A stretch of DNA of 64,000 nucleotides, from the NCBI GenBank assembly GCA_037349315.1, contig JBAIAC010000217.1, positions 124,001 to 188,000 of the forward strand, given 5' to 3'. This stretch comes from Chelydra serpentina. Taxonomy: Eukaryota > Chordata > Testudines > Chelydridae. Within the stretch, counting starts at the first letter, position 1, and each line of letters begins with the position of its first letter. Both the position numbers and the translations under genes were made by a program. This document shows positions 27,201 through 64,000 of the stretch, piece by piece. The notes below the pieces were generated by a model. It was not told where the DNA came from. It made no database searches and saw only the letters and a program-made list of their open reading frames with translations.

Positions 27201-27959
27201 AACTGGGCTATTGGGTATTTTGGGACAAGCACCCTCATCCCTCTATTTTGTGCAGACCTGAGCCTATTGGCCAACTCTAATCAAGGTTATGAGATCAGGC
27301 CCCCTGGCAGGATAGGCAGGGAGACGCCTAGTTTGTGAATACCACTGTGTGACTGCTGGGGGTTACATGTGAGTGTGGCCTCCGAGCTGCTCATTAGCTG
27401 TGTAATGGGATTTAGTTGGCTTTGTTCCTACTGACGGGGTTAGTTGGTAATTGAGATTTGGCTTTGAGAATGTCAGTGATGCCTCAATGCTGGACTTGGG
27501 CACCTAAAGAGGCACTGAGATGGCTATGCTCTTCTGTGAATCTGGTGTCAAGTGACTGATTCAGAATCCACTGAAGTGAATGGAAAGTCTCCCATTGACT
27601 TCAGTGAGTTTGGATCTGGCCCTAGGCCTGCACTGATTTGATATCACTGTCGCATGTATGAGGGAGAGGTTTCCTCTGTCTTCCTTGAGGCCTCTCTCTT
27701 CTGGGACAGAATCACATGTGCAAACCCTTGTGCCTGTTTCATAGGACAAAACCAAGGGGAAAACGTGAACTTTACAATCACACATTTGAGGGTGTATCAG
27801 ATTGTGCTCTTGCCAGAGAATTCTAATTACTTAATCAAGGGTCCAGTGCTTCTCCCAGTGAAATCAATGAGAAGATTTACATGAGAAGGTGCAGGATTAG
27901 GATCCTCATCAGATCATACGGTGAATATAATGAAAAGTGTTTGTGTTTTTTTTTTCCAG

Positions 27960-27980
27960 ATCAACCGAGGGATGACAAAC
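27960..27980 (+). CDS. heptad micro-exon a1 (D-QPRDDK)
   Basis: 21 bp between TTTTTCCAG and GTAAGT, phase 1 to phase 1, open. It encodes one heptad with Pro at core position 3. The first amino acid assumes a preceding G. Such 21-bp exons encode the stem of butyrophilins and the tail of bird BG proteins. Confidence 0.75.
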
Positions 27981-29051
27981 GTAAGTTTTCTCCAGTGGCT
28001 GCAGTTTGAAGGGGGAAGGGCCTGGCATTTCTCCAGTGAGGGACGTGGGGTAGGCAGGGTCCCTTCAACTGGGTGGAGGATCAGGACCTTTGCTCTTTTG
28101 CAATGAGGGGAGGAAGGTACATATTTGCCATTGGGACTCGAGAGAGTTTGGACATTTTTCACTGGCAGGTTGTTTCTCTGCTTGGTCGGGGTTAGGGTTT
28201 CAGAACAGGACTTCTCAAGGGAAAGATGTGTTTGTTACCCCAATTTGAAGAAAAAGCAAAGACAAGAGGGGTGACACATTGAGAAGCGTCTGCCTTTGCA
28301 AAACAATGGCAGGAAGGCAAAGGCGGAGTTGATTTGATTGCAGAGCCATTCGCATAGAGTGAGGTTTCATTATGGAAATGTTTAGCAATGAGCTTAAGCT
28401 TCCACAACACAACTTTCTATAACAACTGTAGGATAAATACCTTCTTTCGGCCAATGAGAATAATTTCTACTGACGGGCCAGAGCCTCTCCCAGGGGTGTT
28501 TCCTTGGTATCCAGGGAGTTCTCACCTCACAAAGCGGAGTGTAAAGCAGCTATACATTTCCACAGAGCCCAAGACTGATGGGAAATGAGGCCTCATGCTC
28601 ATGAGTCTTGGGCTTTGTATACAAGGACGCTCTTTTCCAGAGCAGTTACCTGGCCTCCCTCGTCTCTGGCAGCCTCATGTTCTTGAGTTCTACAAACAAA
28701 ACTTCCTTTTCTGTGCCCCTCTCTGCTCCTTCACCACACCCCACTCACGGTGGCTGTCTTTGGTCAGTGAGGACCCAGGGTTCAGAGGTGCATCTGTGTG
28801 AGTTCTCCTCCCATCCAGGGAAGAAGGCACCTTGCTTGCGCTGCCATCTGAGCACTTGCTCTGGCTGGCTGCCCCACCAGTCGCTGTTCCTCCCTCCTGC
28901 CCTCCCTGCCAGCTGCTGTTCCGCCCCCGCTGGCCACCTCGCCAGACGCTCTTTCCACTCACCGGTCACCTTCTGCCAGTGTATTCACTACCAGATGAAG
29001 GGATTTTCAGAAACTTTCCATGGTAACGTGTATTTTGTTTTTCTTTTGCAG

Positions 29052-29072
29052 CCCAGCTCAAGAAGGAAAATG
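29052..29072 (+). CDS. heptad micro-exon b1 (P-QLKKEN)
   Basis: 21 bp between TTCTTTTGCAG and GTAAGT, phase 1 to 1. Leu is at core position 3. The flanking introns resemble those of exon a1 (TTTGAAGGGGGAAGGG / TTTGGAAGGGGAAGGG), so a and b derive from one ancestor. Confidence 0.78.
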
Positions 29073-29301
29073 GTAAGTTGGCTTCTGCAGTTTGGAAGGG
29101 GAAGGGTCAGTGATTTCCCCATTCAGAGAAGTGGAGGTCAGGACCTTTCTCCTTTTGCAGTGAGTGGGAGGTGAGTGAGTTTTGCAATCGTGAGTGAGGA
29201 GAATCTGGGTATTTTTTACTGGCAGGTTGTATATCTGGTTGGTTGGGGCTCGGGTATCAGACTGGGGCTGATCAGAGGAAAGAAATGTTCATTCACCCAT
29301 T

Positions 29302-29650
29302 GTGAAGCAACAACGAGATGAGTGCCTCGTATTAAATGAGGATATTCATATAATAGGCATCATAGAAACGTGGTGGAATGAGGATAATCAATGGGACACA
29401 GTAATACCAGGTTACAAAATATATCGGAAGGACAGAACAGGTCGTGCTGGTGGGGGAGTGGTGCTATATGTGAAAGAAAGTGTAGACTCAAATGAAGTTA
29501 AAATCTTAAATGAACCAAACTGTACCATAGAATCTCTATTGGTAGTAATTCCGCGCTTTAATAATAAGAATATAGCAGTAGGGATATATTACCGACCACC
29601 TGACCAGGATGGTGATAGTGACTGTGAAATGCTCAGGGAGATTAGACTCT
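29302..29650 (+). mobile_element. CR1 endonuclease-domain fragment
   Basis: The frame reads HIIGIIETWWNEDNQWD, then PGYKIYRKDRTGRAGGGVVL and IAVGIYYRPPDQD: the APE-type endonuclease domain of CR1 ORF2, with the catalytic-region ETWW and YRPP blocks. It stops abruptly before RT. Confidence 0.85.
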
Positions 29651-29686
29651 CCCTGACATACATTTTTACATACATGTAAGACAAGA

Positions 29687-30135
29687 CATACATTTTTAAG
29701 ACTGAGGGTGATTAAACATTGTGACAATTTACCATGGTTTCTGGTGGATCCTCCATCACTGGAAATTTTTGAAATCAAGATTATATGTTTTTTCTAAAGG
29801 ATCTGCTGTAATGAAAACATGGTTTAGGAGAAGTTCGCTGGCCCATGTTAGAGAAACCAGAGACAGTGTGATGTTCATTGTGTCACTTGCTCATTCATAG
29901 CTATTCTTCAATAAACACAGCTTTTGGTATTTTTCACTAGGAGGGTGGTGAAGCACTGGAATGGGTTCCCTAGGGAGGTGGTGGAATCTCCATACTTAGA
30001 GGTATTTAAGACCCAGCTTGAGAAAGTCCTGACTGGGATAATTTAGTTGGTGCCTGCCCTGTTTTGAGCAGGGGTTTGGACTAGATGACCTCCTGATGTC
30101 TCTTCCTACCCTAATCTTCTATGATTCTATGAACT
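29687..30135 (+). mobile_element. CR1 3' end
   Basis: Contains GTGAAGCACTGGAATGGGTT, GGACTAGATGACCTCCTGA and the ATTCTATGA tail. This is also about where the 3,066-bp tandem sub-unit begins. Confidence 0.8.
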
Positions 30136-30214
30136 ATTAGTTATCTTTGTTCTTGGCCATATTATTACAAAAGGTGATATTGTTATCTTTAAATATATAT
30201 ATTTTTCTTTTTAG

Positions 30215-30235
30215 GAGACTTGAAAAAGAGAATAA
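30215..30235 (+). CDS. heptad micro-exon c1 (G-DLKKRI)
   Basis: 21 bp between TTTCTTTTTAG and GTAAGT, phase 1 to 1. Leu at position 3 and Ile at position 7 give a 4-3 coiled-coil spacing. It ends in A, so joining to exon d gives AAG (Lys). Confidence 0.82.
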
Positions 30236-30539
30236 GTAAGTCTGTGTCCTTTCTCTTTCGTGTGCTCTACTGCTGTGTATGAATCATGTAGAATGAAAAG
30301 AAAAATCATTGGCTAATTTTGTCAATAACATATTTATTAAAGCAAGAATATAATCTTCTCTATCTACTACGTGGTGGGATAGGAATGGGGCTAGCCCAAG
30401 GATTGAATAGCTAGCTCACTACCCATGGCAAATATTTATGCTAATCAACAATGAAAGGATCTCATTCACCCTTTTCAATTCATAAGTCTATGGACATGCC
30501 CTGAACTGTTTTCTTCTCCTCCCCATTTTTCTTTTGCAG

Positions 30540-30560
30540 AGGAACCCGAGGAGCAAATTG
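30540..30560 (+). CDS. heptad micro-exon d1 (K-EPEEQI)
   Basis: 21 bp between TTTTCTTTTGCAG and GTGAGT, phase 1 to 1. It is acidic, complementing the basic c heptad. Pro (CCC) replaces the Leu (CTC) found in the homologous exon f. Confidence 0.8.
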
Positions 30561-30779
30561 GTGAGTTTGCCGACTTTACTCAGTTCTGACATTCCACTGA
30601 GCAAACTTTGTGTGCCCTGTATTGATTCCAAGAAGTTCAGCTGCAGAGGGTGTGCTATCATTGCGTGCCCCGTGCATCTGGGAACTGGAGGGTCTGTGTG
30701 GATTACTCTGGAATCGTGGTATGTCATGGAGCTGAGACCTCAGCAGCACTTTGCAAAGAAAGTCAGAGGGGTCGGGGTT

Positions 30780-31441
30780 TGTAAGCGTGTCGGACTCACT
30801 CCGGCAGCGCCTCCTGCTGGTCTTGTCTGGGAATTAACTCGTCCAGCTCCGGAGCACCCTCTTCAGGTCGGTGATCCGCTTGACCGCTGGTCCCGTGCCC
30901 CTTCCAGGACCCCGGTGCCTCTTTCTCGGGGGGCTGCCCCCTGGCAGTACCCCCTTAGTTTCTGGGTCTCCCCTCCCTGGGGAGCCCCCAACCACTATCC
31001 CCACCTCACCTCAGTATAGGCTACTGCCAGTCACCACCTAGCCCCATGAACTGGGGCAGACTGCAGTGTATTAGCCACTCATCACAGGCAAGGGGGGTTG
31101 GACCTGCTGCCCCTGAACCCCAGTACCTCTCGGGGCCCTATGCCAGGCCCTGCAGCCTGGGGCTTCCCAGCCTGGAGCCTCCCTGCTCCCCTGGCCTTTC
31201 CCCAGCCCTGCTCCCAACTAGGTACCTGCTTCCCCCTTGCAGCCAGACCCTTCTCCCTCTGAAGGCAGAGAGAGTCTGTCTGCTCCAGGCCCACTGCCCT
31301 CTTATAAGAGCCAGCTGGGCCCTGATTAAACTGGCCACAGCTGTGGCTGCTTCTGTCATCAGCCTAGCGTTCCCCGTTGCAGCCCTCTCCCAGGCTGCTT
31401 TAAGCCCCTTAGGACAGGAGTGGTGTAGCCACCCCGCTACA
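30780..31441 (-). mobile_element. solo LTR, copy 1, with GGGTT duplication
   Basis: 662 bp, TGTAAGCG ... CCGCTACA, flanked by GGGTT at 30775-30779 and 31442-31446. Minus strand: TGTAGCGGGG start, TATAAGAGG box about 155 bp in. The empty site is preserved in the e-type sub-units near 37145 and 39850. Confidence 0.9.
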
Positions 31442-31837
31442 GGGTTCAAGGGCAGTCGGGCATGAGAGGAAAAGCATCCATGCGCTACAGGAATTGAACA
31501 TGTCCACCGAATGCAAAAGCTCTGGATGGGGAGTGTGGCAGGACAGAGTTGCTAGTTCTGTGCCTGACTTTGTAGTAGCTGAGGCCATGCTGTTACATGG
31601 GATGGAGGGAGAATTGTCTTCCCCAAAGAGCTTCCCCCAAACTGGGAACCCACATCCTGTGCAGAGCACCCAGTGTCGGCTCTTTGACAATCCCCCTGCA
31701 AAAAAGTGCTGATAGTCACACAGGGATGTTTGCTAGAGCGCGAAAGAGAACCTAGATATTCTGTCTTCCGGTCCGGTGTATTCACTATGAGAGCAAGGTG
31801 TTGGCAGAAGCTTTCCATGGGAATGTGTCTATTTCAG

Positions 31838-31858
31838 GGAGGAAAAAAAGCTCTTTGG
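31838..31858 (+). pseudogene. decayed b-like heptad exon
   Basis: The upstream flank (GTGTATTCACTA..., CTTTCCATGG-AA-GTGT) matches that before exon b1. The acceptor TATTTCAG is kept, but 21 bp later the donor reads AT instead of GT. The would-be heptad is basic (-RKKSSL). Confidence 0.55.
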
Positions 31859-32004
31859 ATGAAAAAAGGATGAAGAAAGATACAAAAGGATCTCTGTAGA
31901 ATCAAAAGTTTCTATTTCCTCTGTATTAAAAAGGAACATTCAGATTTTTCACTTGAAAATGAAGGTTTGATTCAGTTACCCAATCATGTGGGGGCGGTGT
32001 AGGC

Positions 32005-32300
32005 ACAGGCGCCAACTTTTTGATTTCCTTGATAGTGCTTGACCACCTCTCTGCCCCAGGATCCGTCCCTATATATCCCTTCTCTCAAGGACCCATTCCT
32101 TGCTCGCCTCTTTCCACTTCCACTCCACCTCTTCCTGCCACATTACACCCCCTCTCCCAAGAGCGCCCCACCCTCGTTCCGCCTCTTCCTGTCCATGCTC
32201 CTCCGCCTGAGCGCCTCCTGCCCTCTGCAGAACAGCTGATCAGTGCGGGCAGGACGCATGGCGGAGGAGGAGGAGGGGCTGATTGGCGGGGCCTGCCGGT
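32005..32300. repeat. CT-rich interspersed repeat, copy 1
   Basis: Begins GGCACAGGCGCCAACTTTTT and ends GGGGCTGATTGGCGGGGCCT. Homologous copies lie at about 34760, 37730, 40045, 50995, 53955 and 56460. It looks like a DNA-transposon-derived repeat. Frames in it are not genes. Confidence 0.7.
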
Positions 32301-32389
32301 GAGTGCAATTTCTGTCTCAGCAAAGCTGTTCCCCTTTCACTGGAGCTGACACAAGTCCTTCAATAGGAAATGGTTCGCAGACCCCAGGC

Positions 32390-33195
32390 CAGAGGGCATA
32401 GGGTTGATCTTAATTAGGACTATAGAGGTTATATTAGGTGTTTATTTGTCTCTATTGCTGGAATACTGAGTGCAGTTCTGGTGTCCCCCATGAAGAAAGA
32501 AGTTGTCAAAGTGGAGAGGGTTCAGAGAAGATCACCAGAATGATCAAAGGATTAGATAACATGTCATAGTGACAGACTCAAAGAGCTCTGTCTCTTTAGT
32601 TTAACAAAGGGAAGGGGTGACTTGATTGAACTCTATATGTATGTGCATAGAGAAGAAATATGTGATAATGGGCTTTTTAGTCTAGCAGAGAATGGTCTAG
32701 CAAAATCCAGTGGCTGGAAATTGAAATTAGGAAAGTCAGACTAGAAATAAGGCATATATTTTTAAGACTGAGGGTGATTAAACATTGTAACAATTTACAA
32801 TGGGTTCTGGTGGATCCTCCATCACTGGAAATTTTTGAAATCAAGATTATATGTTTTTTCTAAAGGATCTGCTGTAATGAAAACATGGTTTAGGAGAAGT
32901 TCGCTGGCCCATGTTAGAGAAACCAGAGACAGTGTGATGTTCATTGTGTCACTTGCTCATTCATAGCTATTCTTCAATAAACACAGCTTTTGGTATTTTT
33001 CACCCGGAGGGTGGTGAAGCACTGGAATGGGTTCCCTAGGGAGGTGGTGGAATCTCCTTCCTTAGAGGTATTTAAGACCCAGCTTGAGAAAGTCCTGACT
33101 GGGATAATTTAGTTGGTGCCTGCCCTGTTTTGAGCAGGGGTTTGGACTAGATGACCTCCTGAGGTCTCTTCCTACCCTAATCTTCTATGATTCTA
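32390..33195 (+). mobile_element. CR1 3' half (sub-unit boundary)
   Basis: A decayed RT C-terminus (CTATTGCTGGAATACTGAGT, GGTTCAGAGAAGATCACCAG) followed by the CR1 3' end. Homologous stretches recur at 35160-35965, 38110-38940, 51370-52200 and 54310-55160. Such repeats are suitable substrates for unequal crossover. Confidence 0.8.
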
Positions 33196-33280
33196 TGAAC
33201 TATTAGTTATCTTTGTTCTTGGCCATATTATTACAAAAGGTGATATTGTTATCTTTAAATATATATATTTTTCTTTTTAG

Positions 33281-33301
33281 GAGACTTGAAAAAGAGAATA
33301 A
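33281..33301 (+). CDS. heptad micro-exon c2 (G-DLKKRI)
   Basis: Identical in sequence and splice sites to c1, exactly 3,066 bp downstream of it. Confidence 0.82.
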
Positions 33302-33605
33302 GTAAGTCTGTGTCCTTTCTCTTTCGTGTGCTCTACTGCTGTGTATGAATCATGTAGAATGAAAAGAAAAATCATTGGCTAATTTTGTCAATAACATATT
33401 TATTAAAGCAAGAATATAATCTTCTCTATCTACTACGTGGTGGGATAGGAATGGGGCTAGCCCAAGGATTGAATAGCTAGCTCACTACCCATGGCAAATA
33501 TTTATGCTAATCAACAAAGAAAGGATCTCATTCACCCTTTTCAATTCATAAGTCTATGGACATGCCCTGAACTGTTTTCTTCTCCTCCCCATTTTTCCTT
33601 TGCAG

Positions 33606-33626
33606 AGGAACCCGAGGAGCAAATTG
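33606..33626 (+). CDS. heptad micro-exon d2 (K-EPEEQI)
   Basis: Identical to d1, 3,066 bp downstream. Acceptor CCTTTGCAG, donor GTGAGT. Confidence 0.8.
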
Positions 33627-33845
33627 GTGAGTTTGCCGACTTTACTCAGTTCTGACATTCCACTGAGCAAACTTTGTGTGCCCTGTATTGATTCCAAGAA
33701 GTTCAGCTGCAGAGGGTGTGCTATCATTGCGTGCCCCGTGCATCTGGGAACTGGAGGGTCTGTGTGGATTACTCTGGAATCGTGGTATGTCATGGAGCTG
33801 AGACCTCAGCAGCACTTTGCAAAGAAAGTCAGAGGGGTCGGGGTT

Positions 33846-34507
33846 TGTAAGCGTGTCGGACTCACTCCGGCAGCGCCTCCTGCTGGTCTTGTCTGGGAAT
33901 TAACTCGTCCAGCTCCGGAGCACCCTCTTCAGGTCGGTGATCCGCCTGACCGCTGGTCCCGTGCCCCTTCCAGGACCCCGGTGCCTCTTTCTCGGGGGGC
34001 TGCCCCCTGGCAGTACCCCCTTAGTTTCTGGGTCTCCCCTCCCTGGGGAGCCCCCAACCACTATCCCCACCTCACCTCAGTATAGGCTACTGCCAGTCAC
34101 CACCTAGCCCCATGAACTGGGGCAGTCTGCAGTGTATTAGCCACTCATCACAGGCAAGGGGGGTTGGACCTGCTGCCCCTGAACCCCAGTACCTCTCGGG
34201 GCCCTATGCCAGGCCCTGCAGCCTGGGGCTTCCCAGCCTGGAGCCTCCCTGCTCCCCTGGCCTTTCTCCAGCCCTGATCCCAACTAGGTACCTGCTTCCC
34301 CCTTGCAGCCAAACCCTTCTCCCTCTGAAGGCAGAGAGTGTCTGTCTGCTCCAGGCCCACTGCCCTCTTATAAGAGCCAGCTGGGCCCTGATTAAACTGG
34401 CCACAGCTGTGGCTGCTTCTGTCATCAGCCTAGCGTTCCCCGTTGCAGCCCTCTCCCAGGCTGCTTTAAGCCCCTTAGGACAGGAGTGGTGTAGCCACCC
34501 CGCTACA
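33846..34507 (-). mobile_element. solo LTR, copy 2
   Basis: 662 bp with the same ends and the same GGGTT duplication (33841-33845, 34508-34512) as copy 1. It was carried here by the tandem duplication and is not an independent insertion. Confidence 0.9.
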
Positions 34508-34598
34508 GGGTTCAAGATATTCTGTCTTCCGGTCCGGTGTATTCACTATGAGAGCAAGGTGTTGGCAGAAGCTTTCCATGGGAATGTGTCTATTTCAG

Positions 34599-34619
34599 GG
34601 AGGAAAAAAACCTCTTTGG
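34599..34619 (+). pseudogene. decayed b-like heptad exon
   Basis: Same state as the copy at 31838: acceptor CAG kept, donor position AT. Confidence 0.5.
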
Positions 34620-34759
34620 ATGAAAAAAGGATGAAGAAAGACACAAAAGGATCTCTGTAGAATCAAAAGTTTCTATTTCCTCTGTATTAAAAAGGAACAT
34701 TCAGATTTTTCACTTGAAAATGAAGGTTTGATTCAGTTACCCAATCATGTGGGGGCGGT

Positions 34760-35065
34760 GTAGGCACAGGCACCAACTTTTTGATTTCCTTGATAGTGCT
34801 TGACCACCTCTCTGCCCCAGGATCCGTCCCTATATATCCATTCCCTCAAGGCCCCACTCCTTGCTCGCCTCTTCCTGCTCCCACCCCGCCTCTTCCTGCC
34901 ACATTACACCCCCTCTCCCAAGAGCGCCCCACCCTCGTTCCGCCTCCTCCTGTCCATGCTCCTCCGCCTGAGCGCCTCCTGCCCTCTGCAGAACAGCTGA
35001 TCGGTGTGGGCAGGATGCACTGCGGTGGAGGGGGGAGGGGCTGATTGGCGGGGCCTGCGGTGGGT
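34760..35065. repeat. CT-rich interspersed repeat, copy 2
   Basis: Homologous to 32005-32300; begins GGCACAGGCACCAACTTTTT. Confidence 0.7.
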
Positions 35066-35159
35066 GCAATTTCTGTCTCAGCAAAGCTGTTCCCCTTTCA
35101 CTGGAGCTGACACAAGTCCTTCAATAGGAAATGGTTCGCAGACCCCAGGCCAGAGGGCA

Positions 35160-35965
35160 TAGGGTTGATCTTAATTAGGACTATAGAGGTTATATTAGGT
35201 GTTTATTTGTCTCTATTGCTGGAATACTGAGTGCAGTTCTGGTGTCCCCCATGAAGAAAGAAGTTGTCAAAGTGGAGAGGGTTCAGAGAAGATCACCAGA
35301 ATGATCAAAGGATTAGATAACATGTGTCGTAGTGACAGACTCAAAGAGCTCTGTCTCTTTAGTTTAACAAAGGGAAGGGGTGACTTGATTGAACTCTATA
35401 TGTATGTGCATAGAGAAGAAATACGTGATAATGGGCTTTTTAGTCTAGCAGAGAATGGTCTAGCACAATCCAGTGGCTGGAAACTGAAATTAGGAAAGTC
35501 AGACTAGAAATAAGACATACATTTTTAAGACTGAGGGTGATGAAACATTGTAACATTTCACCATGGTTTCCGGTGGATCCTCCATCACTGGAGATTTTTG
35601 AAATCAAGGTGATATGTTCTTTGTAAAGCATCTTCTCTAATGCAAACATGAATTGTTTGGGGAAAGTTCTCTGGCTCATGCTATAGAGACCAGAGACAGT
35701 GTGATGTTCATTGTGTCACTTGCTCACTCATAGCTATTCTCCAATAAACACAGCTTTTGGTATTTTTCACCCGGAGGGTGGTGAAGCACTGGAATGGGTT
35801 CCCTAGAGAGGTGGTGGAACCTCCATCCTTATAGGTATTTAAGGCCCGGCTTGAGAAAGCCCTGGCTGGGATGATTTAGTTGGTGCTGGTCCTGTATTGA
35901 GGAGGGGGTTGGACTAGATGATCTCCTGAGGTCTCTTCCAACCCTAATCTTCCATGATTCTATGA
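35160..35965 (+). mobile_element. CR1 3' half
   Basis: Decayed CR1 RT C-terminus plus 3' end, ending at ATTCTATGATTTTATGA. Confidence 0.78.
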
Positions 35966-35969
35966 TTTT

Positions 35970-36160
35970 ATGAATCACCCTCCCTGATTGAGCTGACCTC
36001 GTTATCTCTAGCCTGACTCTTCCCTGCACATTTATATCTGCCCCTGGACATTTCCACTGCTTGCATCTGAAGAAGTGGGTATTCACCCACGAAAGCTTAT
36101 GCTCCAATACCTCTGTCAGTCGATAAGGTGCCACAGGATCCTTTGTCGCTTCTATGAATT
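35970..36160 (-). mobile_element. SINE-like insertion in the CR1 tail
   Basis: TGGGTATTCACCCACGAAAG, GATAAGGTGCCACAGGATCC and TTTGTCGCTTC match the SINE-like repeat at 22751. It is flanked by CTATGA on both sides. Present also near 52205 and 55165, absent at 38935. Confidence 0.7.
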
Positions 36161-36238
36161 ATTAATTATCTTTGTTCTTCACCATATTATTACAAACGGT
36201 GATATTGTTATCTTTAAATATATTTTTTTCTTTTTCAG

Positions 36239-36259
36239 GTTACTTGGGAAAGATAATAA
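36239..36259 (+). CDS. heptad micro-exon e1 (G-YLGKII)
   Basis: 21 bp between TTTCTTTTTCAG and GTAAGT, phase 1 to 1. Homologous to exon c by flanks. Leu at position 3 and Ile at 7 are kept. Confidence 0.8.
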
Positions 36260-36904
36260 GTAAGTCTCTGCCCTTTTTCTTTTGTGTACTCTACTGCTCT
36301 GCAGGAATCTTCTAGAATGAAAAGAAAAATCATTTGAGTTATTAGTCCTCACCCCACTTTCCTGTTTTGGATAGAGCAGGTTACCTGACTGTTTTGTCAA
36401 TAATAGATGAGCGCTTGCTGGTTCTGAGCAGTGCTGCTCATACATCGTTGAAATTTACATAGACTCACCCAATCCTGGTTTGTTTTCTCCAAGAACCATA
36501 CCACTCTTGCTGAGACACAGTACGAAAGGCAATGTACACATTGAAAGGACTCTGCGTTGAAACAGTAAATGGAATGCAGCTCATGATGTAAATGGTGTTA
36601 CTGCTCCTTTCATAGCAGAACCCATATTAGCAGAGGAGCCTAGTGTGTCATATTCCCCTTTTGCTAATTAGTTGTGGCCATGAAGCTCTTTCTTAAATTG
36701 ATTAAAGCAAGAACATAATCTTCTCTATCTACTACGTGGTGGGATAGGAATGGGGCGAGCCCACGGATTGAATAGCTACCTCACTGCCCATGGCCAATAT
36801 TTATGCTAATCAACAAAGAGAGGATCTCATTCACCCTCTTCAATTCATAAGTCAATTGACATGCCCTGAACTGTTTTCTTCTCCTCCCCATTTTTCTTTT
36901 GCAG

Positions 36905-36925
36905 AGGAACTCTGGGAGCAAATGG
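36905..36925 (+). CDS. heptad micro-exon f1 (K-ELWEQM)
   Basis: 21 bp between TTTCTTTTGCAG and GTGAGT, phase 1 to 1. Homologous to exon d but with Leu at position 3 and Met at 7, giving an intact hydrophobic core. Confidence 0.8.
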
Positions 36926-37549
36926 GTGAGTTTGCCAACTTTACTCAATACTTACAGTCCACTGACCCAACTTTGTGTGCCCTGTGTTGGTTCCAACAAC
37001 TTCAGCTGCAGAAGGGATGCTATCATTGCATGCCCCATGGATCTGGGAAGTGGAGGGTCTGTGTAGATTACTCTGGAATTGTGGTATGTCATTGAGCTGT
37101 TACCTCACCAGCAGTTTGCAAAGAAAGTCAGAGGGGTGGGGGTTTAAGGGCAGTCGTGCATGTGAGAAAAAACATCCACGCGCTACAGGAACAGAACATA
37201 TCAAGTGAATGGAAAAGCTCTGGATGGGGAGTGTGGCAGGACCAAGTTGCTAGTGCTGTGCGTGACCCTGTAGTAGCGGAGGCCATGTGGAGACTGCACC
37301 CTTTGCCTCTGGGATGGAGGGAGAATTGTCTTCCCCAAAGAGCTTCCCCCAAACTGGAAATCCACATCCTGTGCAGAGCACCCAGAGTTGGCTCTTTGAC
37401 AATCCCCCTGCAAAGGAAGTGCTGATAGTCACACAGGGATGTTTGTTAGAGCAAGAAATAAAACCTAGATATTCTGTCTTCCGGTCCGGTGTATTCACTA
37501 TGAGAGCAAGGTGTTGGCAGAAACTTTCCTTGGGAATGTGTCTATTTCG

Positions 37550-52200: not shown

Positions 52201-52204
52201 AATC

Positions 52205-53792: not shown

Positions 53793-53954
53793 ATGAAAAA
53801 AAGACCAAGAAAGACACAAAAGGATCTCTGTAGAATCAAAAGTTTCTTTCTCCTCTGTATTAAAAAGGAACATTCTGCTTTTTCACTTTAAAAATGAAGG
53901 AGACATTGTTAAGGTTTGATTCAGTTACCCAATCATGTGGGGACGGTGTAGGCA

Positions 53955-54250: not shown

Positions 54251-54309
54251 GTGCAATTTCTGTCTCAGCAAAGCTGTTCCCCTTTCACTGGAGCTGATAC
54301 AAGTCCTTC

Positions 54310-55160
54310 AATAGGAAATGGTTCGCAGACCCCAGGCCAGAGGGCATAGGGTTGATCTTAAATAGGACTATAGAGGTTATATTAGCTCTGTATTTGGCTC
54401 TAGTGCTGGAATACTGAGTGCAGTTCTGGTGTCCCCCACGAAGAAAGAAGTTGTCAAAGTGGAGAGGGTTCAGAGAAGAGCACCAGAGTGGTTAAAGGAT
54501 TAGATAACATGTGTCATAGTGATAGACTCAAAGAGCTCAATCTCTTTAGTTTAACAAAGAGAAGGGGTGACTTGATTGCACTGTTTATGTATGTACATAG
54601 AGAACAAATATTTGATAATGGGCTTTTTAGTCTAGCAGAGAATGGTCTAGCACAATCCAGTGGCTGGAAATTGAAATTAGGAAAGTCAGACTAGAAATAA
54701 GGCATATATTTTTAAGACTGAGGGTGATTAAACATTGTAACGATTTACCATGGTTTCTGGTGGATCCTCCATCACTGGAAATTTTTGAAATCAAGGTGAT
54801 ATGTTCTTTGTAAAGCATCTTCTCTAATGCAAACATGAATTGTTTGGTGAAAGTTCTCTGGCTCATGCTATAGAGACCAGAGACAGTGTGATGTTCATTG
54901 TGTCACTTGCTCACTCATAGCTATTCTCCAATAAACACAGCTTTTGGTATTTTTCACCCAGAGGGTGGTGAAGCACTGGAATGGGTTCCCTAGAGAGGTG
55001 GTGGAACCTCCATCCTTATAGGTATTTAAGGCGTGGCTTGAGAAAGCCCTGGCTGGGATGATTTAGTTGGTGCTGGTCCTGTATTGAGGAGGGGGTTGGA
55101 CTAGATGATCTCCTGAGGTCTCTTCCAACCCTAATCTTCCATGATTCTATGATTCTATGA
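54310..55160 (+). mobile_element. CR1 3' half
   Basis: Counterpart of 38110-38940 by position, but it runs into a SINE-like insertion as at 35970. Confidence 0.78.
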
Positions 55161-55164
55161 ATCA

Positions 55165-55345
55165 CCCTCCCTGATTGAGCTGACCTTGTTATCTCTAGCC
55201 TGACTCTTCCCTGCACATTTATATCTGCCCCTGGACATTTCCACTGCTTGCATCTGAAGAAGTGGGTATTCACCCATGAAAACTTATGCCCCAATACCTC
55301 TGTTAGTCGATAAGGTGCCACAGGATCCTTTGTCGCTTCTATGAA
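55165..55345 (-). mobile_element. SINE-like insertion in the CR1 tail
   Basis: Same insertion as at 35970 and 52205. Absent from the positional counterpart at 38935. Confidence 0.7.
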
Positions 55346-55426
55346 TTATTAATTATCTTTGTTCTTCACCATATTATTACAAACGGTGATATTGTTATCT
55401 TTAAATATAATTTTTTTCTTTTTCAG

Positions 55427-55447
55427 GTTACTTGGGAAAGATAATAA
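55427..55447 (+). CDS. heptad micro-exon e4 (G-YLGKII)
   Basis: Identical to e1 and e2. TTTTTCAG acceptor and GTAAGT donor. Its partner f is deleted at 56085-56089. Confidence 0.8.
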
Positions 55448-56084
55448 GTAAGTCTCTGCCCTTTTTCTTATGTGTACTCTACTGCTCTGTAGGAATCTTC
55501 TAGAATGAAAAGAAAAATCATTTGAGTTATTAGTCCTCTCCCCACTTTCCTGTTTTGGATAGAGCAGGTTACCTGACTATTTTGTCAATAATAGATGAGC
55601 GCTTGCTGGTTCTGAGCAGTGCTGCTCATACATCGTTGAAATTTACATAGACTCACCCAGTCCTGGTTTGTTTTCTCCAAGAACCATAACACTCTTGCTG
55701 AGACACAGTACGAAAGGCAATGTACACATTGAAAGGACTCTGCATTGAAATATTAAATGGAATGCAGCTCATGATGTAAATGGTGTTACTGCTCCTTTCA
55801 TAGCAGAACCCATATTAGCAGAGGAGCCTAGTGTGTCATATTCCCCTTTTGCTAATTAGTTGTGGCCATGAAACTGTTTCTTAAATTGATTAAAGCAAGA
55901 CTATACTCTTCTCTATCTACTATGTAGCGGGATAGGAATGGGGCGAGCTCACGGATTGAATAGCTAGCTCATTACGAATGTCCAATATTTATGCTAATCA
56001 ACAAAGAGAGGATCTCATTCACCCTCTTCAATTCCCAAGTGAATGGACATACACTGAACTGTTTTCTTCTCCTCCCCATTTTTC

Positions 56085-56089
56085 CTTTG
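56085..56089 (+). other. deletion scar of micro-exon f, unit 2
   Basis: Same CTTTG junction as 39678-39682, so the deletion predates the large duplication. Confidence 0.85.
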
Positions 56090-56459
56090 TGTGCCCTGTG
56101 TTGGTTCCAACAACCTCAATTGCAGAAGGGGTTGCATATCATTGCATGCCCCATGGGTATGGGAAGTGGAGGGTCTGTGTAGATTACTCTGGAATCGTGG
56201 TATTTCATGGAGCTGAGACCTTACGAGCACTTTGCAAAGAAAGTCAGAGGGGTCGGAGTTCAAGGGCAGTCGGGCATGTGAGAAAAAATGTCCACGTGCT
56301 GCAGGAACAGAACATATCAAGTGAATGGAAAAGCTCTGGATGGGGAGTGTGGCAGGACCGAATAGCTAGTGCTGTGCGTGACCTTGTAATAGCTGAGGCC
56401 ATGCGGACCCTCCACCCAGTGCCTCTGGGATGGAGGGAGACTTCTGCTCCCCAAATAGC

Positions 56460-56770
56460 ACAGGCGCCAACTTTTTCATTTCCTCGAGGGTGCTTGACAG
56501 TCTGTCTGCCCCAGGCCCTGCCCCTACTATACCCCTTCCCTCAAGGCCCCACCCCGTCACACCTCTTCCCGCTCCCACTCCACTTCTCCCGGCCCTATTG
56601 CACCCCCTCTCCCAAGAGCGCCCTGACCTCGTTCCGCCTCTTCCTTCCCCCGCACCTCTCCACCAGCAGCTCCTGCCCTCTACAGAAAAGCTGAGCAGTG
56701 GCAGGCAGGAGGCGCTGTGGTGCAGGGGGAGGAGCTGATTGGCAGGACCTGCCGGTGATTGCTGAGCATC
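56460..56770. repeat. CT-rich interspersed repeat, copy 7
   Basis: Homologous to 40045-40370. Confidence 0.7.
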
Positions 56771-58005
56771 CACTCTTTTGTTGTTCATTAACTAAACTTT
56801 CTAAAAAAAAAAGACAAATAGGAGAGATGTGAGCCTGTATCTCACTTTGCAAACAGTGGCAGGACGCAAGAATGAGTTTGCTTTGATTTCTGAGGTGATC
56901 ACACAGAATGAGATTTTATCAGGGAAATATTTAGCAGGTAGCTCTAGATTGCACCCAGCAAATCATGGTAAGTGTTAAACATCTCTGTGGGGTTCCATAC
57001 AGTGCCCCGAGGGGGAACTCTTGATACTGAAAGGGCAGAGCATCCCCTTGGATGGGAAACCTCTGCTGGAAACTTCAGGGGCCTTTCATTGCATCCCGCA
57101 CCAATGAGGGGGGTTCTCCCCTCACACAGCAGAGTGCAGAGCATGGCGGAATAACCACAAATCCCAAGAGTCTGACAGATGCCAGGTCTCATGCTCAGAG
57201 GTCTTGTGTCTTTCTGCCAGAAAAGTTTCCTGGATGCCCCTGTCCCTGGCAGCAGAGTGCTGAGGGTGCTGTCCCCCTGCATGCCTGAGATCTCCAGGAA
57301 GTGCTGTTAACCCCTTGATCTAGAATCCCACCTACTGTTCCCCATGGTGATATCATTCAAGAACTCACTCACCATTCCTGTCCCATGACTGGGCCAGTCA
57401 GACACACATTGTCTATTATCTGAACAGGTGCAATTTCTTTCTCAGCATGGCTGTACCCTTTTCCTTGAACCTCACAAAACCCCTTCAGTAGGAATAGGTT
57501 GGGTAGGCAGTGGGCCAGAGGGTATGAGGATGATTTTAAGGTGGACTCTGAAGGTTATATTAGTTCTGTCTTTGGCTCTGCCATTGGAATACTGTGTCCG
57601 TTTCTGGTGTCCCCAATGGAAGAAGGAAGTTGATCAATAGGAAAGGGTTCAGAGAAGAACCAGGGAAATGATTAAAAGATTAGAAAACATATTTTGTAGT
57701 GATAGACTCCAGGAGTTTAATCTGTTTTGCTAAACAAAGAAAAGGGGTACCTTGATCACACTCTATAATTAAGTACATGAGGAACAAATATTTGACATCA
57801 AACTAAATTTTGCCCACTATACCCTCCTCATTCCAATTGAACCATCCGATCCATCTTCCCTAGTTCTTCCCTAAACATCATGGGAGCAAAGAGGACTAAA
57901 TAGTATATACTCTGGATGTCAGACTCGCACTAGCCTTCTACCTTGAGAGAACCAAGGTAGTCACCAAGACTGCGGATTGTCGCCAAGACTTTTTATTTCA
58001 TCTTT
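56771..58005. other. array sequence without micro-exon
   Basis: Counterpart of 40371-41599, with a CR1-like fragment about 57500-57760. No 21-bp exon was found. Confidence 0.5.
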
Positions 58006-60314
58006 GGAATGATCTAAACATTTCGCCATTTTCAAGCAGTAACTGTGTCAATGGATTTCTGGATGCATCCACCTTTGCTACAGCAGGAGGATATACAACT
58101 CCCACAGTATTCTTGCCAGCAAGTTAAAGAAGTATGGGCTGGATGAATGGACGGTAAGGTGGATAGAAAACTGGCTAGATGGTCGGGCTCAACAGGTAGT
58201 GATCAATGGCTCCATGTCTAGTTGGCAGCCGGTATCAAGTGGAGTGCCCCAAGGGTCAGTGCTGGGGCTGGTTTTGTTCAATATCTTCATTAACGATCTG
58301 GAGGATGGTGTGGACTGCACCCTTAGCAAGTTTGCAGATGACACTAAACTGGGAGGAGTGGTTGATACGCTGGAGGGTAGGGTTAGGATACAGAGGGACC
58401 TAGACAAATTAAAGGACTGGGCCAAAAGAAATCTGATGAGGTTCAACAAGGACAAGTGGAGAGTCCTGCACTTAGGACGGAAGAATCCCATGCACTGCTA
58501 CAGACTAGGAACCGAATGGCTGGGCAGCAGTTCCGCAGAAAAGGACCTAGGGGTTACAGTGGACGAAAAGCTGAATATGAGTCAACAGTGTGCCCTTGTT
58601 GCCAAGAAGGCTAATGGCATTTTGGGTTGTATAAGTAGGGGCATTTCCAGCAGATCGAGGGATGTGATCATTCCCCTCTATTCGGCACTGGTGAGGCCTC
58701 ATTTGGAGTACTGTGCCCAGTTTTGGGCCCCACACTAGAAGAAGGATGTGGATAAATTGGAAAGAGTCCAACAGAGGGCAACAAAAATGATTAGGGGGCT
58801 GGAGCACATGACTTATGAGGAGAGGCTGAGGGAACTGGGATTGTTTAGCCTGCAGAAGAGAAGAGTGAGGGGGGATTTGATAGCTGCTTTCAACTACCTG
58901 AAAGGGGGTTCCAAAGAGGATGGACCTAGACTGTTCTCAGTGGTAGAAGATGACAGAACAAGGAGTAATGGTCTGAAGTTGCAGAGGGGGAGGTTTAGGT
59001 TGGATATTAGGAAACACTTTTTCACTAGTAGGGTGGTGAAGCACTGGAATGGGTTACCTAGGGAGGTGGTGGAATCTCCTTCCTTAGAGGTTTTTAAGGT
59101 CAGGCTTGACAAAGCCCTGGCTGGGATGATTTAGTTGGGGTTGGTCCTGCTTTGAGCAGGGGGTTGGACTAGATGACCTCCTGAGGTCCCTTCCAACCCT
59201 GAGATTCTATGATTCTATGATTGGCAGTGTGGTTAGTCAGAGGAAGAGACCTAGACATGCCCCATCTTTGTCTGCATCCAGACCTCCTGAACCTAAAGCA
59301 GAACCTTTTGAGGAGCAGGAGGAGAGACTAGAGGAGGAAAATTCACCTCCAAACAATTTCTCATCATCTTCACCGGACGACGCAGTGATGCCAACCCCTA
59401 CCCCCAACATCTGCTAATGCAATGGACATGGACTTCTTATTTTCACATCCCACACCAAACTCTCCGGTGGTCAATGCGGTGAATGAAAGGGGGAGACAAC
59501 ATCACTCAAAATGGCCCCCAGTGGTAAAGACTGGAAGAGGATAGATCTGTCAATGGCAACTCCATAATTCAGGTTACAGTGTAGTAGCCATGTTAGTCTG
59601 TGTCAGCAAAAAGAAAATAAGAAAGAAATAAATACTTGTGGCACCTTAGAGACTAACAAATGTATTTCAGCATAAGCTTTCATGGGTTAGAACCCATGTT
59701 TCCTATTATGAGGCTTTGTCAATAGCAACATCAGTGGTCATGAGATGGAGTTCATGACTACACCTGTTGGGATTCCTGAAGAAAGTGCAGACCTCAGGAA
59801 AGGATCTGCCATTGAAAAGCTCCAAACCATTTGCCAACTGCATTGATGAATCCCTCCATTCCCTAAAAGATTCAAAAGCAACATTGTGATCACTCAGCAT
59901 TTATACACAGCACAGAAGAAAAGACCGGGTAGATATCGCCCTACCCCAAGATCTTGACCTCTGGCTGTCCTTCTAGCTCAACGACACTATGACCTGCAGT
60001 GGAGATAACAGAGACCTCCTTCTAAACGTAGACAGCCCCCATCACAATTGTCTACATGTCACCACCTACCTCAAAACCGCAGTTTTGAGAACTTGGTTGA
60101 GTCCGCGAGACACCTCCACCTAGACCATGTGCTGCCACCATCAGAAACTCTCCATCAGTTTGCTGACCATCTGACCACATTCTACCCAACATGGCGGAAT
60201 ATCACCCCAGACAAGTGGGCATTGGAATTCATCAGCAACGGATACCCAACTCCATATCTATCCCTCCTGCCTATCCCTCCGCCCGACCCTCTTCAGGGAC
60301 CTTTCTCACTGTAG
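58005..60314 (+). mobile_element. DIRS-like remnant with CR1 and SINE, unit 2
   Basis: Counterpart of 41600-43906. CR1 lies at about 58098-59223; its C-terminal frame (58199-59134) carries the same TAG at 58736-58738, showing the stop predates the duplication. The SINE-like repeat is at about 59573-59698. Confidence 0.6.
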
Positions 60315-62182
60315 TGAGGCGGTGTGGTTCCCCACAGCCCTGGAGAGAGATGAGTCCCTCCCGACATCAGAGTGGGCAGAACCAGGAAGCTCTGAGCCCG
60401 CCCCCCAGAGGGTCAGGCGTTGTCCCGGAAGTATAAAGGTGTGACCTCGGAGCTCACTGAGAGAGCAGCCGACAGGGATTCCAGACGCCTCTGGCCTAGC
60501 TCGCGACTGGGAAACCCCAGCAGCCTGCGGTAAACCTGAGGACTGGCCCAGCCTGCCCCGCGCCAGCTACCTGGAGGAGTTGCCGATCCTGCCCCACACC
60601 AGCTATCCAGAGGAGTTCCCGAATCTGCCCTTCGTCAGCTATCCCGAGGACCCCCTGGTGCTGGACCCCCCTGAGGACACCACCCCAACCCAGGTACCTC
60701 AAGAGGGGGAGTCTGGAAGTAGCCCGGGGGCAGCCAACCCTAGTCTGGCTGCAGAACTACCAGAGAGTATGTCACGTGAATCTATTGAAACCATGGCGGA
60801 AGCGGGAGGGCCTATTAATTAACCCTTAACCACCAGAACTAGAGTTGGGTCCCTGCACGCCCCTGACAGAGGACCCCGCAGGCTCCCAGCTTGGCCACAC
60901 GCTCATGGGGGAGCAGCGAAAGCAGGCCCAATGTCTCCTGCAATGTCTCTCATGCCATCCAGACCGAGCCGGGGAAGGTAATCCGGGAGACAACCAGGCC
61001 CCTGTCGCACCGAATGCGTCAGGAGGTTGAGGAGGAAGTACAGTTCATGCTATCCGTAGGAGTCATTGAGCCATTGCAGAGCGAGTGGCGCAGTCCGGTG
61101 ATCTTGTTACTCAAGCACAGTGGCACATAGCGCTTCTGTATAGCCTTAGAATCATAGAATCATAGAATCTCAGGGTTGGAAGGGACCTTAGGAGGTCATC
61201 TAGTCCAACCCCCTGCTCAAAGCAGGACCAACCCCCAATTTTTGCCCCAGATCCCTAAATGGCCCCCTCAAGGATTGAACTCACAACCCTGAGTTTAGCA
61301 AGCCAATGCTCAAACCACTGAGCTATCCCTCCCCACGTCCGGCAGATCAACGCCATCCAAAGCTTCGATGCATATCCTATGCCCTGTGTGGATGAACGGC
61401 TTGTCCGCCTAGGGGAGACCCATTTCACCACATCCTCCACCTCAGTAAGGGGTACTGGCAGATCCCGCTCGACCCCATCTCTAAGGAGAAGACGGCGTTC
61501 GCCACCCCAACGGGACTTTACCAATTTACCTGGATGCCCTTCAGCCTCCATGGGGCCCCGGTGATGTTCCAACAACTAATGGTTCACCTTTTATGGCCCC
61601 ATCAAGACTATGCAGCGGTGTATTTGTATGATGTCATAGTCTACAGCTGCCAGTGGGAGGACCACCTGCAACGCGTAGCCGTGGTCTTGAGATCCCTGCG
61701 AAAGGAAGGACTAACAGCCAATCCAAAAAAGTGTTGCATTGGATGGCAAGAGGCAACATACCTCGGATACACTATAGGGGGAGAACGAGTGAAACCCCTC
61801 ATGGGGAAGGTTCAAGCACTCCCAGAGGGTCAGGCGTTGCCCTGGAAGTATAAAGGCCCGACCCCAGAGCTCACTGAGAGAGCAGCCGCTGGGGAGGCCA
61901 GATGCCTCTGGCTGAGCTCACGATTAGGAAACCCCAGAGGCCAGTGGTAAACCCGAGGACTGGCCCGACTTGCCCCTCGCCAGCTACCCGGAGGAGTTGC
62001 TGAGCCTGCCCTGCGCCAGCTATCCAGAAGAGGCCCTGGTGCTGGACCGCCATGAGGACACCACCCCGACCCAGGTACCTCAATACGGGGAGTCTGGAAG
62101 TAGCCCAGGAGCAGCCAACCCGAGTCAGGCGGCAGCACTGCCAGAGCCTATGTCAGTGTGTTGCGTCCAGGATCCCCACTGA
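60310..62182 (+). mobile_element. truncated gypsy-like element, unit 2
   Basis: Counterpart of 43902-45775 with the same RT-to-LTR truncation, the same SINE insertion (61147-61335, minus) and the same YLYD in place of YLDD. It also has a private one-base deletion near 61430 that shifts the RT frame. Confidence 0.8.
61147..61335 (-). mobile_element. tRNA-derived SINE, unit 2 copy
   Basis: Same insertion as 44739-44927, with pol III A-box TAGCTCAGTGG. Confidence 0.88.
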
Positions 62183-62829
62183 CACAGAAGAGGGTCTCCT
62201 GCCACTGCTAGGACCCCGGGCTGGGACGTAGTGGAGTGTGTGAGCCTGCATCCCCCCTGCCACCCAACTCATGGGTGGCAGTCTCCCCCTCACCCAGGCC
62301 CTTTGGAACCTAGGGCCTGGGCCTCCTGTTGACATTCTGTTGTTGCTCAGCCCCTGCCTGAGGGCCTGAGCACCTGACTCACCATTGCCCCGACCTGACC
62401 TAGGGCCTGGGCCTACTGTGTTTATTTCTGCTCTCACAAGGGCCTCTGAGGAAGACTCCCGCGGCTGAACTAATTCCCCACAAGACATCTTTCTGAGTTT
62501 AGTGAGGCAGTCTGGTTCCCTGCCGCTCTGGAGAGAGACGAGCCCTGGCTACACTCACAAACTTTTAGGTCCTCTCTTGGCTCCCTGGTCTGGAGTCTTG
62601 GGGAGGTCCCAGCTGGCTGTAGGTAGCTGCCCCAGTGTTGGTTTTCTTCCCCTTGATTGCTGGTCTCTGCAGGGCTGGCACTCCCGTCACACACTAAACC
62701 CCACAATAGTTCAAAGTCCCAATTTTGACGGGGAGTGGGAGTTGCGTACAGACTCTTCAGACTGTGCTGCTCCTCTCCTAGCTCCAAGCTCAAACAGAGC
62801 AAAAAGTGAAACCGCGGGGACTTCAGTCA
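62183..62829 (+). other. LTR-like sequence at unit 2 end
   Basis: Counterpart of 45776-46422. No gene. Confidence 0.45.
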
Positions 62830-64000
62830 CTGACAGGGTTAGTTGGTAGTTGAGATTTGGGTTGAGAATGTCAGTGATGCTTCAGTGCTGGACTTGGGCA
62901 CCTAAAGAGGCACTGAGATGGCTATGCTCTTCTGTGAATCTGGTGTCAAGTGACTGATTCAGAATCCACTGAAGTGAATGAAAGTCTCCCATTGACTTCA
63001 GTGAGTTTGGATCTGGCCCTAGGCCTGCACTGATTTGATATCACTGTCACATGTATGAGGGAGAGGTTTCCTCTGTCTTCCTTGAGGCCTCTCTCTTCTG
63101 GGACAGAATCACATGTGCAAACCCTCGTGCCTTTTTCATAGGATAAAACCAAGGGGAAAACGTGAACTTTACAATCACACATTTGAGGGTGTATCAGGTT
63201 GTGCTCTTGCCAGAGAATTATAATTGCGTACTCAAGGGCCCAGATCGTCTCCCAAAGAAATCAATGAGAAGATTTACATGAGAAGGAGCAGGATTATGCT
63301 CCTCATCCATGAATATAATGAAAAGTGTTCCTGTTTTTTTTCTCCAGATCAACTGTGGGAGGACCATGGTAAGTTTTCTCTAATGGCTGCAGTTTGAAGG
63401 GGGAAGAGCCTGGCATTTCCCCAGTGAGGGACTGTGGTAGGCAGGGTCCCTTCAACTGAGTATGGGGATCAGGATCTTTGTGCTTTTACAGCAAGGGGAA
63501 GGAAGGTACATATTTGCCATAGGGACTCGAGACAGTTTGGACATTTTTCACTGGCAGGTTGTGTCTCTTGTTGGTCAGGGGGAGGGTTTCAGAACAGGAC
63601 TTCTCAGAGGAAAGGTGTTTGTTAACCCAATTTGAAGAAAAAACAAAGACAAAAGGGGTGACACATTGAGAAGCGTCTGCCTTTGCAAAACAATGGCAGG
63701 AAGGCAAAGGTGGAGTTGCTTTGATTGAGAGCCATTCGCATAGAGTGAGGTTTCATTATGGAAATGTTTAGCAGTGACCTTAAGCTTCTAGAACACAACT
63801 TTCTGTAACAACTGTAGGATAGATATCTTCTTTCTGCCAAGGAGAATAATTTCTACTGAAGGGCCAAAGCATCCCCTCTTATGGGAAACCTCTGCTGGGA
63901 GCTCCATGGCCTCTCCCAGGGATGTTTCCTTGGTATCCGGAGAGTTCTCACTTCACAAAGCGGGGAGTAAAGTGGTCACAGAGCCCAAGATTGATGGGAA
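62830..64000 (+). repeat. large tandem unit 3, cut by window end
   Basis: Begins with the same left edge (CTGACAGGGTTAGTTGG). It is close to units 1 and 2 up to about 63,190 and clearly more diverged after that. Confidence 0.88.
63348..63368 (+). CDS. heptad micro-exon a3 (QLWEDH)
   Basis: 21 bp between TTTTTCTCCAG and GTAAGT, phase 1 to 1. It differs strongly from a1/a2 (QPRDDK) and has Leu at core position 3, like exon f (ELWEQM). Confidence 0.78.

Follow-up and report, generated by a model that had tools for sequence, protein, structure and literature searches.

What does a row of seventeen exons, each exactly 21 bp long, encode, and on which side of the membrane would its product lie? 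The question is raised by a 64,000-nucleotide stretch of the turtle Chelydra serpentina (hereafter the window), which corresponds to positions 124001-188000 of contig JBAIAC010000217.1 (C217, 339,009 bp) and holds the 5′ part of one butyrophilin (BTN) gene of about 73 kb (C217:142549-215801). A sequence-only reading of the window had placed the row between the membrane and the C-terminus, as a coiled-coil tail. The sequence beyond the window was also read (C217:64001-124000 and C217:188001-288000), and whole-genome searches covered the 2.28 Gb assembly in 806 contigs. The row lies ahead of the transmembrane (TM) exon of this gene, and it probably encodes a length-adjustable stalk outside the cell. 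Positions are those of the window unless a contig is named.

Seventeen heptad exons ahead of the membrane exon

A regular-expression scan of the forward strand for AG-N21-GTRAG finds 22 sites. Seventeen of these have a strong pyrimidine tract (acceptor C/T fraction 0.75-0.90), GTAAG or GTGAG on the 3′ side and an open phase-1 frame, with stops in the other two frames for some classes; they are identical to the intact segments listed by the sequence-only reading, all of which are thus recovered. The remaining five forward sites have weak pyrimidine tracts (0.30-0.45). On the reverse strand there are nine AG-N21-GTRAG sites, five of which stem from a single intron stretch that recurs in antisense and has a stop in that frame. 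By the strict criteria no exon is found in positions 1-27430 of the forward strand or on the entire reverse strand, and first-order Markov sequences of the array region (200 runs) yield a mean of 0.185 strict sites and a maximum of 3. When lengths of 15-30 bp are scanned without the frame test, 21 bp gives 17 sites and every other length 0-2.

The exons fall into six classes, all on the forward strand. Class a reads QPRDDK in a1 (27960..27980) and a2 (46950..46970) and QLWEDH in a3 (63348..63368), the final heptad ahead of the TM exon. Class b is QLKKEN (b1, 29052..29072; b2, 48039..48059), class c DLKKRI (c1, 30215..30235; c2, 33281..33301; c3, 49203..49223) and class d EPEEQI (d1, 30540..30560; d2, 33606..33626; d3, 49528..49548). 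Class e is YLGKII in e1 (36239..36259), e2 (39020..39040) and e4 (55427..55447) and YLEKRI in e3 (52467..52487), while class f is ELWEQM (f1, 36905..36925; f2, 53127..53147). With the split codon counted as heptad position 1, position 3 is leucine in 12 of the 17 exons and proline in the other 5, and position 7 is isoleucine or methionine in 12 of 17. Judged from these residues, positions 3 and 7 are the 4-3 spacing predicted for a coiled coil, kinked at the proline exons.

The TM exon (C217:190261-190326, forward strand) is found 2.3 kb past the window end. It is 66 bp long, encodes VLICFLPSIPLVIIIFVRKYK with a hydrophobicity of 2.2-2.9, and has a donor scoring 9/9. By eye it agrees with the TM segments of relatives in length and residues, for example Dermochelys VLICLLLSIAVVIILFLGKYK. 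This exon lies downstream of all 17 heptads and upstream of the last six heptads of the gene. Since a matching TM exon follows all 17 exons, the array sits between the immunoglobulin (Ig) domains and the membrane; because it precedes the TM, it would encode an extracellular stalk and not a cytoplasmic tail. The placement between membrane and C-terminus proposed earlier is therefore contradicted, while the assignment to butyrophilin- or BG-type heptad exons holds, with butyrophilin domains both up- and downstream of the array.

The full exon order is leader, IgV, IgC, IgV, 17 heptads, TM, a 27-bp exon, six heptads, a second 27-bp exon and B30.2, with every junction in phase 1. From the first IgV to the second 27-bp exon, 29 exons are flanked by AG/GT and form a single frame without a stop, which continues across the junction with B30.2 (read by hand). 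Strand, splice sites and domain identity are observed directly. All of the following exons are on the forward strand; P numbers denote collected proteins. The leader coding part in exon 1 (18549..18618; MHIGFKVLPMFSVPLIFVVKWLWG, donor GTAAG, phase 1) was located by tblastn with Natator P0033 (E 1.6e-11) and Chrysemys P0004 (E 2.4e-4). IgV-1 (20256..20597; 342 bp, phase 1-1; Pfam V-set 4.2e-9) has 79% amino acid identity with P0033, and its top match in the PDB is BTN1A1 (5.7e-7). The butyrophilin-type IgC (23240..23524; 285 bp, phase 1-1; Pfam PF22705, BTN3A2-like Ig-C, 2.3e-23) has 88% identity with P0033 and matches CD276 first in the PDB (2.4e-26), then BTN1A1 (1.5e-13) and other BTNs. IgV-2 (24656..25084; 429 bp, phase 1-1; V-set 1.4e-10) has MOG as its top PDB match (7.5e-8). 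Beyond the TM come the 27-bp exon KKEEHSEE (C217:192990), which resembles KKQEHSEE in turtle P0085, six 21-bp heptad exons (C217:195505, 196171, 198035, 199964, 200460 and 211337, spanning 195505-211357) and the 27-bp exon WRWARNNS (C217:212950), which resembles WRRARNNS in turtle P0033. The B30.2 exon (C217:215278-215801), 27 kb past the window end, carries PRY (5.9e-20) and SPRY (4.7e-23), has 84% identity with P0033 and matches BTN3A1 first in the PDB (3.8e-43), closely followed by pyrin (5.1e-42) and TRIM21 (3.3e-39). With IgV and BTN-type IgC, a single TM, heptads and B30.2, the gene belongs to the butyrophilin family.

An intact heptad-like exon with splice sites, NLEKTI, lies inverted between a3 and the TM exon (C217:188852, reverse strand, about 0.85 kb past the window). 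It is present in both copies of the locus (C46:3815116 in the second, described below) and is unusable on the strand of the gene. Just upstream of the window there is another PRY-SPRY exon (C217:121623-122159, forward strand; SPRY 1.4e-19); in the 57 kb preceding it, a motif search found no Ig open reading frame (ORF) of at least 85 amino acids. By eye, leukocyte-receptor-like Ig exons and olfactory receptors occur near the gene (C217:224377-225758, reverse strand; ORFs at 76379, 229315 and 253411). Rfam gives no match within the window.

Repeat units and a second copy of the locus

Self-BLAST divides the array into large unit A (27430..46421; 18,992 bp, exons a b c d c d e f e), large unit B (46422..62828; 16,407 bp, exons a b c d e f e) and the start of a unit C (62829..64000), which holds a3 and then the TM exon and extends past the window, as the heptad array itself does. 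All three are on the forward strand. Units A and B share three main collinear blocks of 97.7-98.9% identity, and the first kilobase of unit C is 91.4% identical to unit A. Within unit A the c-d sub-unit is duplicated at a spacing of 3,066 bp (99.0% identity), and other sub-unit spacings are 2.8-3.3 kb. The array is thus built at three scales, as had been read from the window alone. Class b is an old duplicate of class a (about 65% over 337 bp). The idea that a and b are copies of the last heptad, g, was dropped, the match being confined to 43-44 bp around the exon (E 0.002-0.003). Units A and B may once have had TM exons of their own; a search of both for a remnant found none.

The sequence-only reading had attributed the expansion to transposon-assisted unequal crossover. 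Copy-number change through unequal crossover among units fits the data and is inferred. The transposon part is unproven: the left borders of A and B (400 bp) share 13-bp matches only, and a transposon-mediated founding duplication is not supported. Each large unit contains two reverse transcriptase (RVT) fragments (41635-42726 and 44914-45543 in A, 58043-59134 and 61396-61950 in B), with RVT_1 scores of 1.7e-16 and 9.2e-23 in unit A; we take them to be CR1-like and gypsy-like. A 175-bp element, 96.6% identical between copies, occurs in the IgV-IgC intron (20772-20946) and once per large unit (44752-44926 and 61160-61334).

The region is present a second time in the assembly, on a contig called C46 here. 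Towards the Ig exons the two copies agree at 99.1% of positions along 17.6 kb, towards the TM exon at 99.0% along 11.6 kb, and an olfactory-receptor-like ORF 63 kb further on matches at 99% too. Because the flanks and this distant ORF match at about 99%, C46 and C217 are collinear. They are likely alleles, a recent segmental duplication being the alternative. C46 carries 12 exons ahead of the TM (a b c d c d e f e f e a) versus 17 on C217, which bears out the earlier claim that the number of such symmetric exons is free to vary without a frameshift. The B30.2 region (C217:215157-215801) reaches just 93% identity with the best-matching C46 sequences (C46:3784236-3784983), against 99% for the rest compared, through gene conversion or haplotype divergence.

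A paralogue is found as paired, near-identical matches on two further contigs, C44 and C20. On C44 (C44:3769992-3909110) butyrophilin parts occupy 139 kb: IgC comes first and blocks of c/d-type heptads last, and, if all belong to one gene, the TM precedes these blocks by about 109 kb. Its TM exon has equal length and phase (translated by eye), and the C44/C20 IgV-2 has 90% amino acid identity and no stops. Between IgC and TM, whole-genome DNA searches found no a, c or d block in the paralogue (about 16.5 of 28.7 kb read directly); one 21-bp candidate exon, PELEKA, lies in this stretch. With that share read and that candidate present, the paralogue is suggestive only, and we do not take it as proof of the ancestral order.

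Conservation, turtle relatives and rival explanations

For the conservation analysis, copies were located by their flanks and not by the exon, and the counts for C46 refer to a 37 kb stretch. Among copies with the downstream flank, the exon is intact in 10/10 (C217) and 5/5 (C46) for classes c/e, in 7/9 and 4/4 for d/f, and in 5/5 and 3/3 for a/b. The upstream c/e flank alone occurs at 6 further exon-less places on C217 and 4 on C46; of these, 3 and 2, respectively, are read as matches displaced by about 190 bp from an e exon that is intact, and the remaining 3 and 2 as dispersed-repeat copies. Substitutions were counted on trees built from the flanks, for classes a, c/e and d/f but not for b, with Poisson P values that ignore gene conversion and relatedness. 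When post-TM copies are included, the AG/GTRAG positions show 0 changes versus 5.4 expected (P 0.0045), and the exon bases 25 versus 16.2 (P 0.026). In sliding windows of the flanks, class a alone stands out, 2.5% of windows reaching its value (c/e 26%, d/f 18%). All 12 whole-codon differences change the amino acid (four class comparisons, two of them sharing class c). This pattern fits exons that are still spliced and whose residues may be diversifying; the alternative would be relaxed constraint.

A search with the V-C-V protein (the IgV-IgC-IgV ectodomain) gave 32 matches (E up to 1e-10), 31 of them turtle-named. A second search, from IgV-2 through B30.2, scored the 7,988 candidates sharing most words and listed 120 of at least 186 matches (E up to 1e-60); sturgeon and gecko proteins are among the matches listed. 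A script located the end of IgV-2 in 43 of 143 collected proteins, several of which are isoforms or close copies and so not independent. Heptads were counted by eye, as was the assignment of P0008, with a heptad after a linker, and P0028, a fused model for which the script had picked a TM further on. P0011 and P0028, both from Mauremys, fuse a butyrophilin with a leukocyte-receptor-like Ig gene.

In 13 of the 43 models, from ten turtle species, 1-11 heptads stand between IgV-2 and TM, and the parts thus follow each other as in the window gene. There are 11 and 3 in Natator, 6 in Caretta (one block, DFFSCL, is not heptad-like), 5 and 3 in Lepidochelys olivacea, 4 and 3 in L. kempii, 3 each in Chelonia, Chrysemys and Mauremys, 2 in Pelusios and 1 each in Dermochelys and Malaclemys (in the latter after the linker). 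The longest model, Natator P0033, runs AQLKEEK-EELQEPM-GDLEKRR and on through 11 heptads, followed by GVLIFLLLSIAGITILFL, nine heptads and B30.2. By eye, class b (QLKKEN) resembles QLKEEK of this protein, class c (DLKKRI) DLEKRx, and classes d and f (EPEEQI, ELWEQM) ELQEQM. Split-codon residues also agree with the sea-turtle stalk: G before c, K before d and G before the TM.

Several observations weigh against a stalk that is made and used. The evidence for use of the array consists of genomic sequence and predicted models; the relatives, with their isoform X numbers and unnamed products, have the look of gene predictions. Array introns measure 0.3-7.9 kb and contain retrotransposon fragments, five of the 17 exons (a1, a2, d1-d3) have proline at a core position, and at the third f position of both large units (39682 and 56089) about 70 bp including the exon are deleted with the flanks kept. 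With pre-TM copies only, the AG/GTRAG positions show 0 changes versus 2.8 expected (P 0.06, a weak test), and the exon bases 18 versus 8.4 (P 0.003), about twice the intron rate, which could reflect lost constraint. The prolines, the deletions and this faster divergence of exons than introns would all suit an array of dead or mostly skipped copies, duplicated into a large pre-TM intron in which one or a few exons such as a3 are used; so would the heptad counts of the models, since 12 of the 13 that have any before the TM use 1-6 of them and not 17. We nevertheless think this rather unlikely: all copies that keep the exon retain both splice sites and the open phase-1 frame, one Natator model has 11 pre-TM heptads, and the split-codon residues match the sea-turtle stalk.

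Other points of the same kind concern the membrane anchor. Among the 43 models, 30 do not show heptads and then a TM: in 8 a second IgC-like stretch precedes the TM, in 1 (P0013) a short linker does, and 21 have no convincing TM. Some turtle models end without any heptads. Of the 21 TM-less ones, at least 4 carry heptads (P0011, P0036-P0038), six (P0002, P0003, P0005, P0012, P0027 and P0029) run on beyond the IgV-2 donor into weakly hydrophobic sequence (1.86-2.12), and the rest are TM-less by script. Chelydra serpentina P0016, which matches 70% of the ectodomain query at 98% and shares intron-derived residues with the window frame, ends in the same read-through. In the window this read-through (25085-25212) gives RGKKNPELEKADLTK, with a weakly hydrophobic end (1.50), and is perhaps a retained-intron form. 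That V-C-V ends there, anchored or secreted, with the array in other transcripts or none, is what these models would imply; we find it hardly credible, as the window stretch is weak, IgV-2 is joined to heptads and then to a strong TM in 13 other models, and missed splicing can yield such models.

A cytoplasmic coiled-coil tail in the style of chicken BG, as first proposed for this array, draws support from exon size, phase and heptad character, which equal those of BG and BTN tails in passages of PMC4046983 and PMC5938342. Two weak symmetric phase-1 TM candidates before a1 (27175-27285 and 27175-27330; hydrophobicity 1.34, donors 6 and 5 of 9) count in its favour; together with two inside the array (36073-36198, 1.50; 39633-39833, 1.68) they also weigh against a stalk. 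However, scans from IgV-2 to a1 gave no stretch that combines TM strength with a fitting phase, and a TM like that of relatives follows the array. Stronger hydrophobic stretches between IgV-2 and a1 were rejected as repeat-like, stop-terminated or in the wrong phase, some of them presumably dispersed repeats; a TM exon in this interval, with candidates at 1.34 versus 2.2-2.9, was rejected as unlikely. The exon order largely contradicts a tail, which we consider very improbable. An assembly artefact, such as uncollapsed haplotypes joined in one contig, might be suspected from the short C217 mirroring a stretch near the end of C46 and the region being present twice. Sequence differences reduce this worry: A and B differ by 1.1-2.3% and the start of C by 8.6%, against 0.9-1.0% for the C217-C46 flanks, and C46 independently carries a tandem array of identical exon classes in another unit number. 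An artefact is accordingly a slim prospect. The read-through models and the weak TM candidates of compatible phase make us hold the extracellular stalk less firmly, and it still seems to us the probable reading.

A proposed stalk and its known counterparts

Translation of the array, helix formation and stalk function are what we infer for the seventeen exons. Every exon that is included would lengthen an extracellular helical stalk next to the membrane by seven residues, and because each exon is symmetric, array length can change in 7-residue steps. Unequal crossover or exon skipping would alter the distance from the V-C-V head to the membrane without a frameshift. With a coiled-coil rise of about 0.15 nm per residue, the stalk, if helical, would measure about 1 to 18 nm, given 17 versus 12 exons in one genome and 1-11 in the models of other species. 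The six post-TM heptads and B30.2 would form a conventional butyrophilin tail. With heptads on both sides of the TM, two chains may associate lengthwise in a rod connecting B30.2 in the cytoplasm with the Ig head. Natator P0036-P0038 (isoforms X17-X19) have no TM, which suggests soluble forms at the level of predicted models; passages of PMC6790196 report skipping of the TM exon in macaque BTN3A transcripts. More tentatively, and with doubt and belief not far apart, these features could make up an inside-out module: an extracellular coil varying by 7 residues, proline hinges, a TM-skipped soluble form, a dimeric B30.2-Ig rod and an evolving, possibly polymorphic setting of synapse distance.

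Synapse-spacing models predict that stalk length sets signalling, and the natural turtle series, from 1 to 17 outer-side heptads, would be a test bed for whether it does. The locus would also be a case of protein length made evolvable by frame-safe micro-exon duplication, with two lengths in one genome. For human BTN3A, a membrane-adjacent cytoplasmic coiled coil is argued, in passages of PMC10665462, to control chain pairing and phosphoantigen sensing by gamma-delta T cells. BTN and BG heptads are placed after the TM in passages of PMC8813856, PMC5938342, PMC4046983 and PMC6790196, and a variable heptad number downstream of the TM is described for squamates in a passage of PMC12841164. Among the open-access matches listed, judged by title and start of abstract, none concerns pre-TM heptads or turtle butyrophilin heptads.

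The closest counterparts are turtle proteins P0043, P0039, P0033, P0021 and P0008, named BTN1A1 or BTN1A1-like, BTN2A2-like, ERMAP-like and BTNL2, names that look automatic. All five have IgV-2, heptads, TM and heptads in this order; all except P0021 have a leader and V-C-V, and all except P0008 a WRRARNNS-like exon and B30.2. They carry 1-11 pre-TM heptads, versus 17 on C217 and 12 on C46. BTNL2 (V-C-V-C, no B30.2) shares the V-C-V ectodomain, whereas the Chelydra gene has a B30.2. No second IgC was found among stop-to-stop ORFs of at least 85 amino acids in C217:64001-288000, screened with one Ig motif (shorter ORFs fall outside the screen); by eye, a resemblance to V-C-V-C is seen in a related turtle type and, judging from the TM and the exon that follows it, in the C44/C20 paralogue. 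Mammalian BTN1A1, BTN2A and BTN3A likewise have IgV and BTN-type IgC, a TM, heptad micro-exons and B30.2. The turtle gene differs in its second IgV and in carrying heptads on either side of the TM (17 ahead of it, 6 behind), whereas passages of PMC5938342 and PMC6790196 give mammalian BTNs just a few, located behind the TM. Confinement of heptads to that side belongs to the description of butyrophilins and is no strict criterion; with 17 preceding the TM, the gene is best filed as a variant butyrophilin. Chicken BG likewise has a long run of 21-nucleotide heptad exons with a split first codon and variable number: 13-36 per gene, with heptad variation thought to be selected, according to passages of PMC4046983 and PMC5938342. 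BG, however, has one IgV, no IgC, no B30.2 and its heptads after the TM, whereas the turtle gene combines V-C-V and B30.2 with an array that comes before it.

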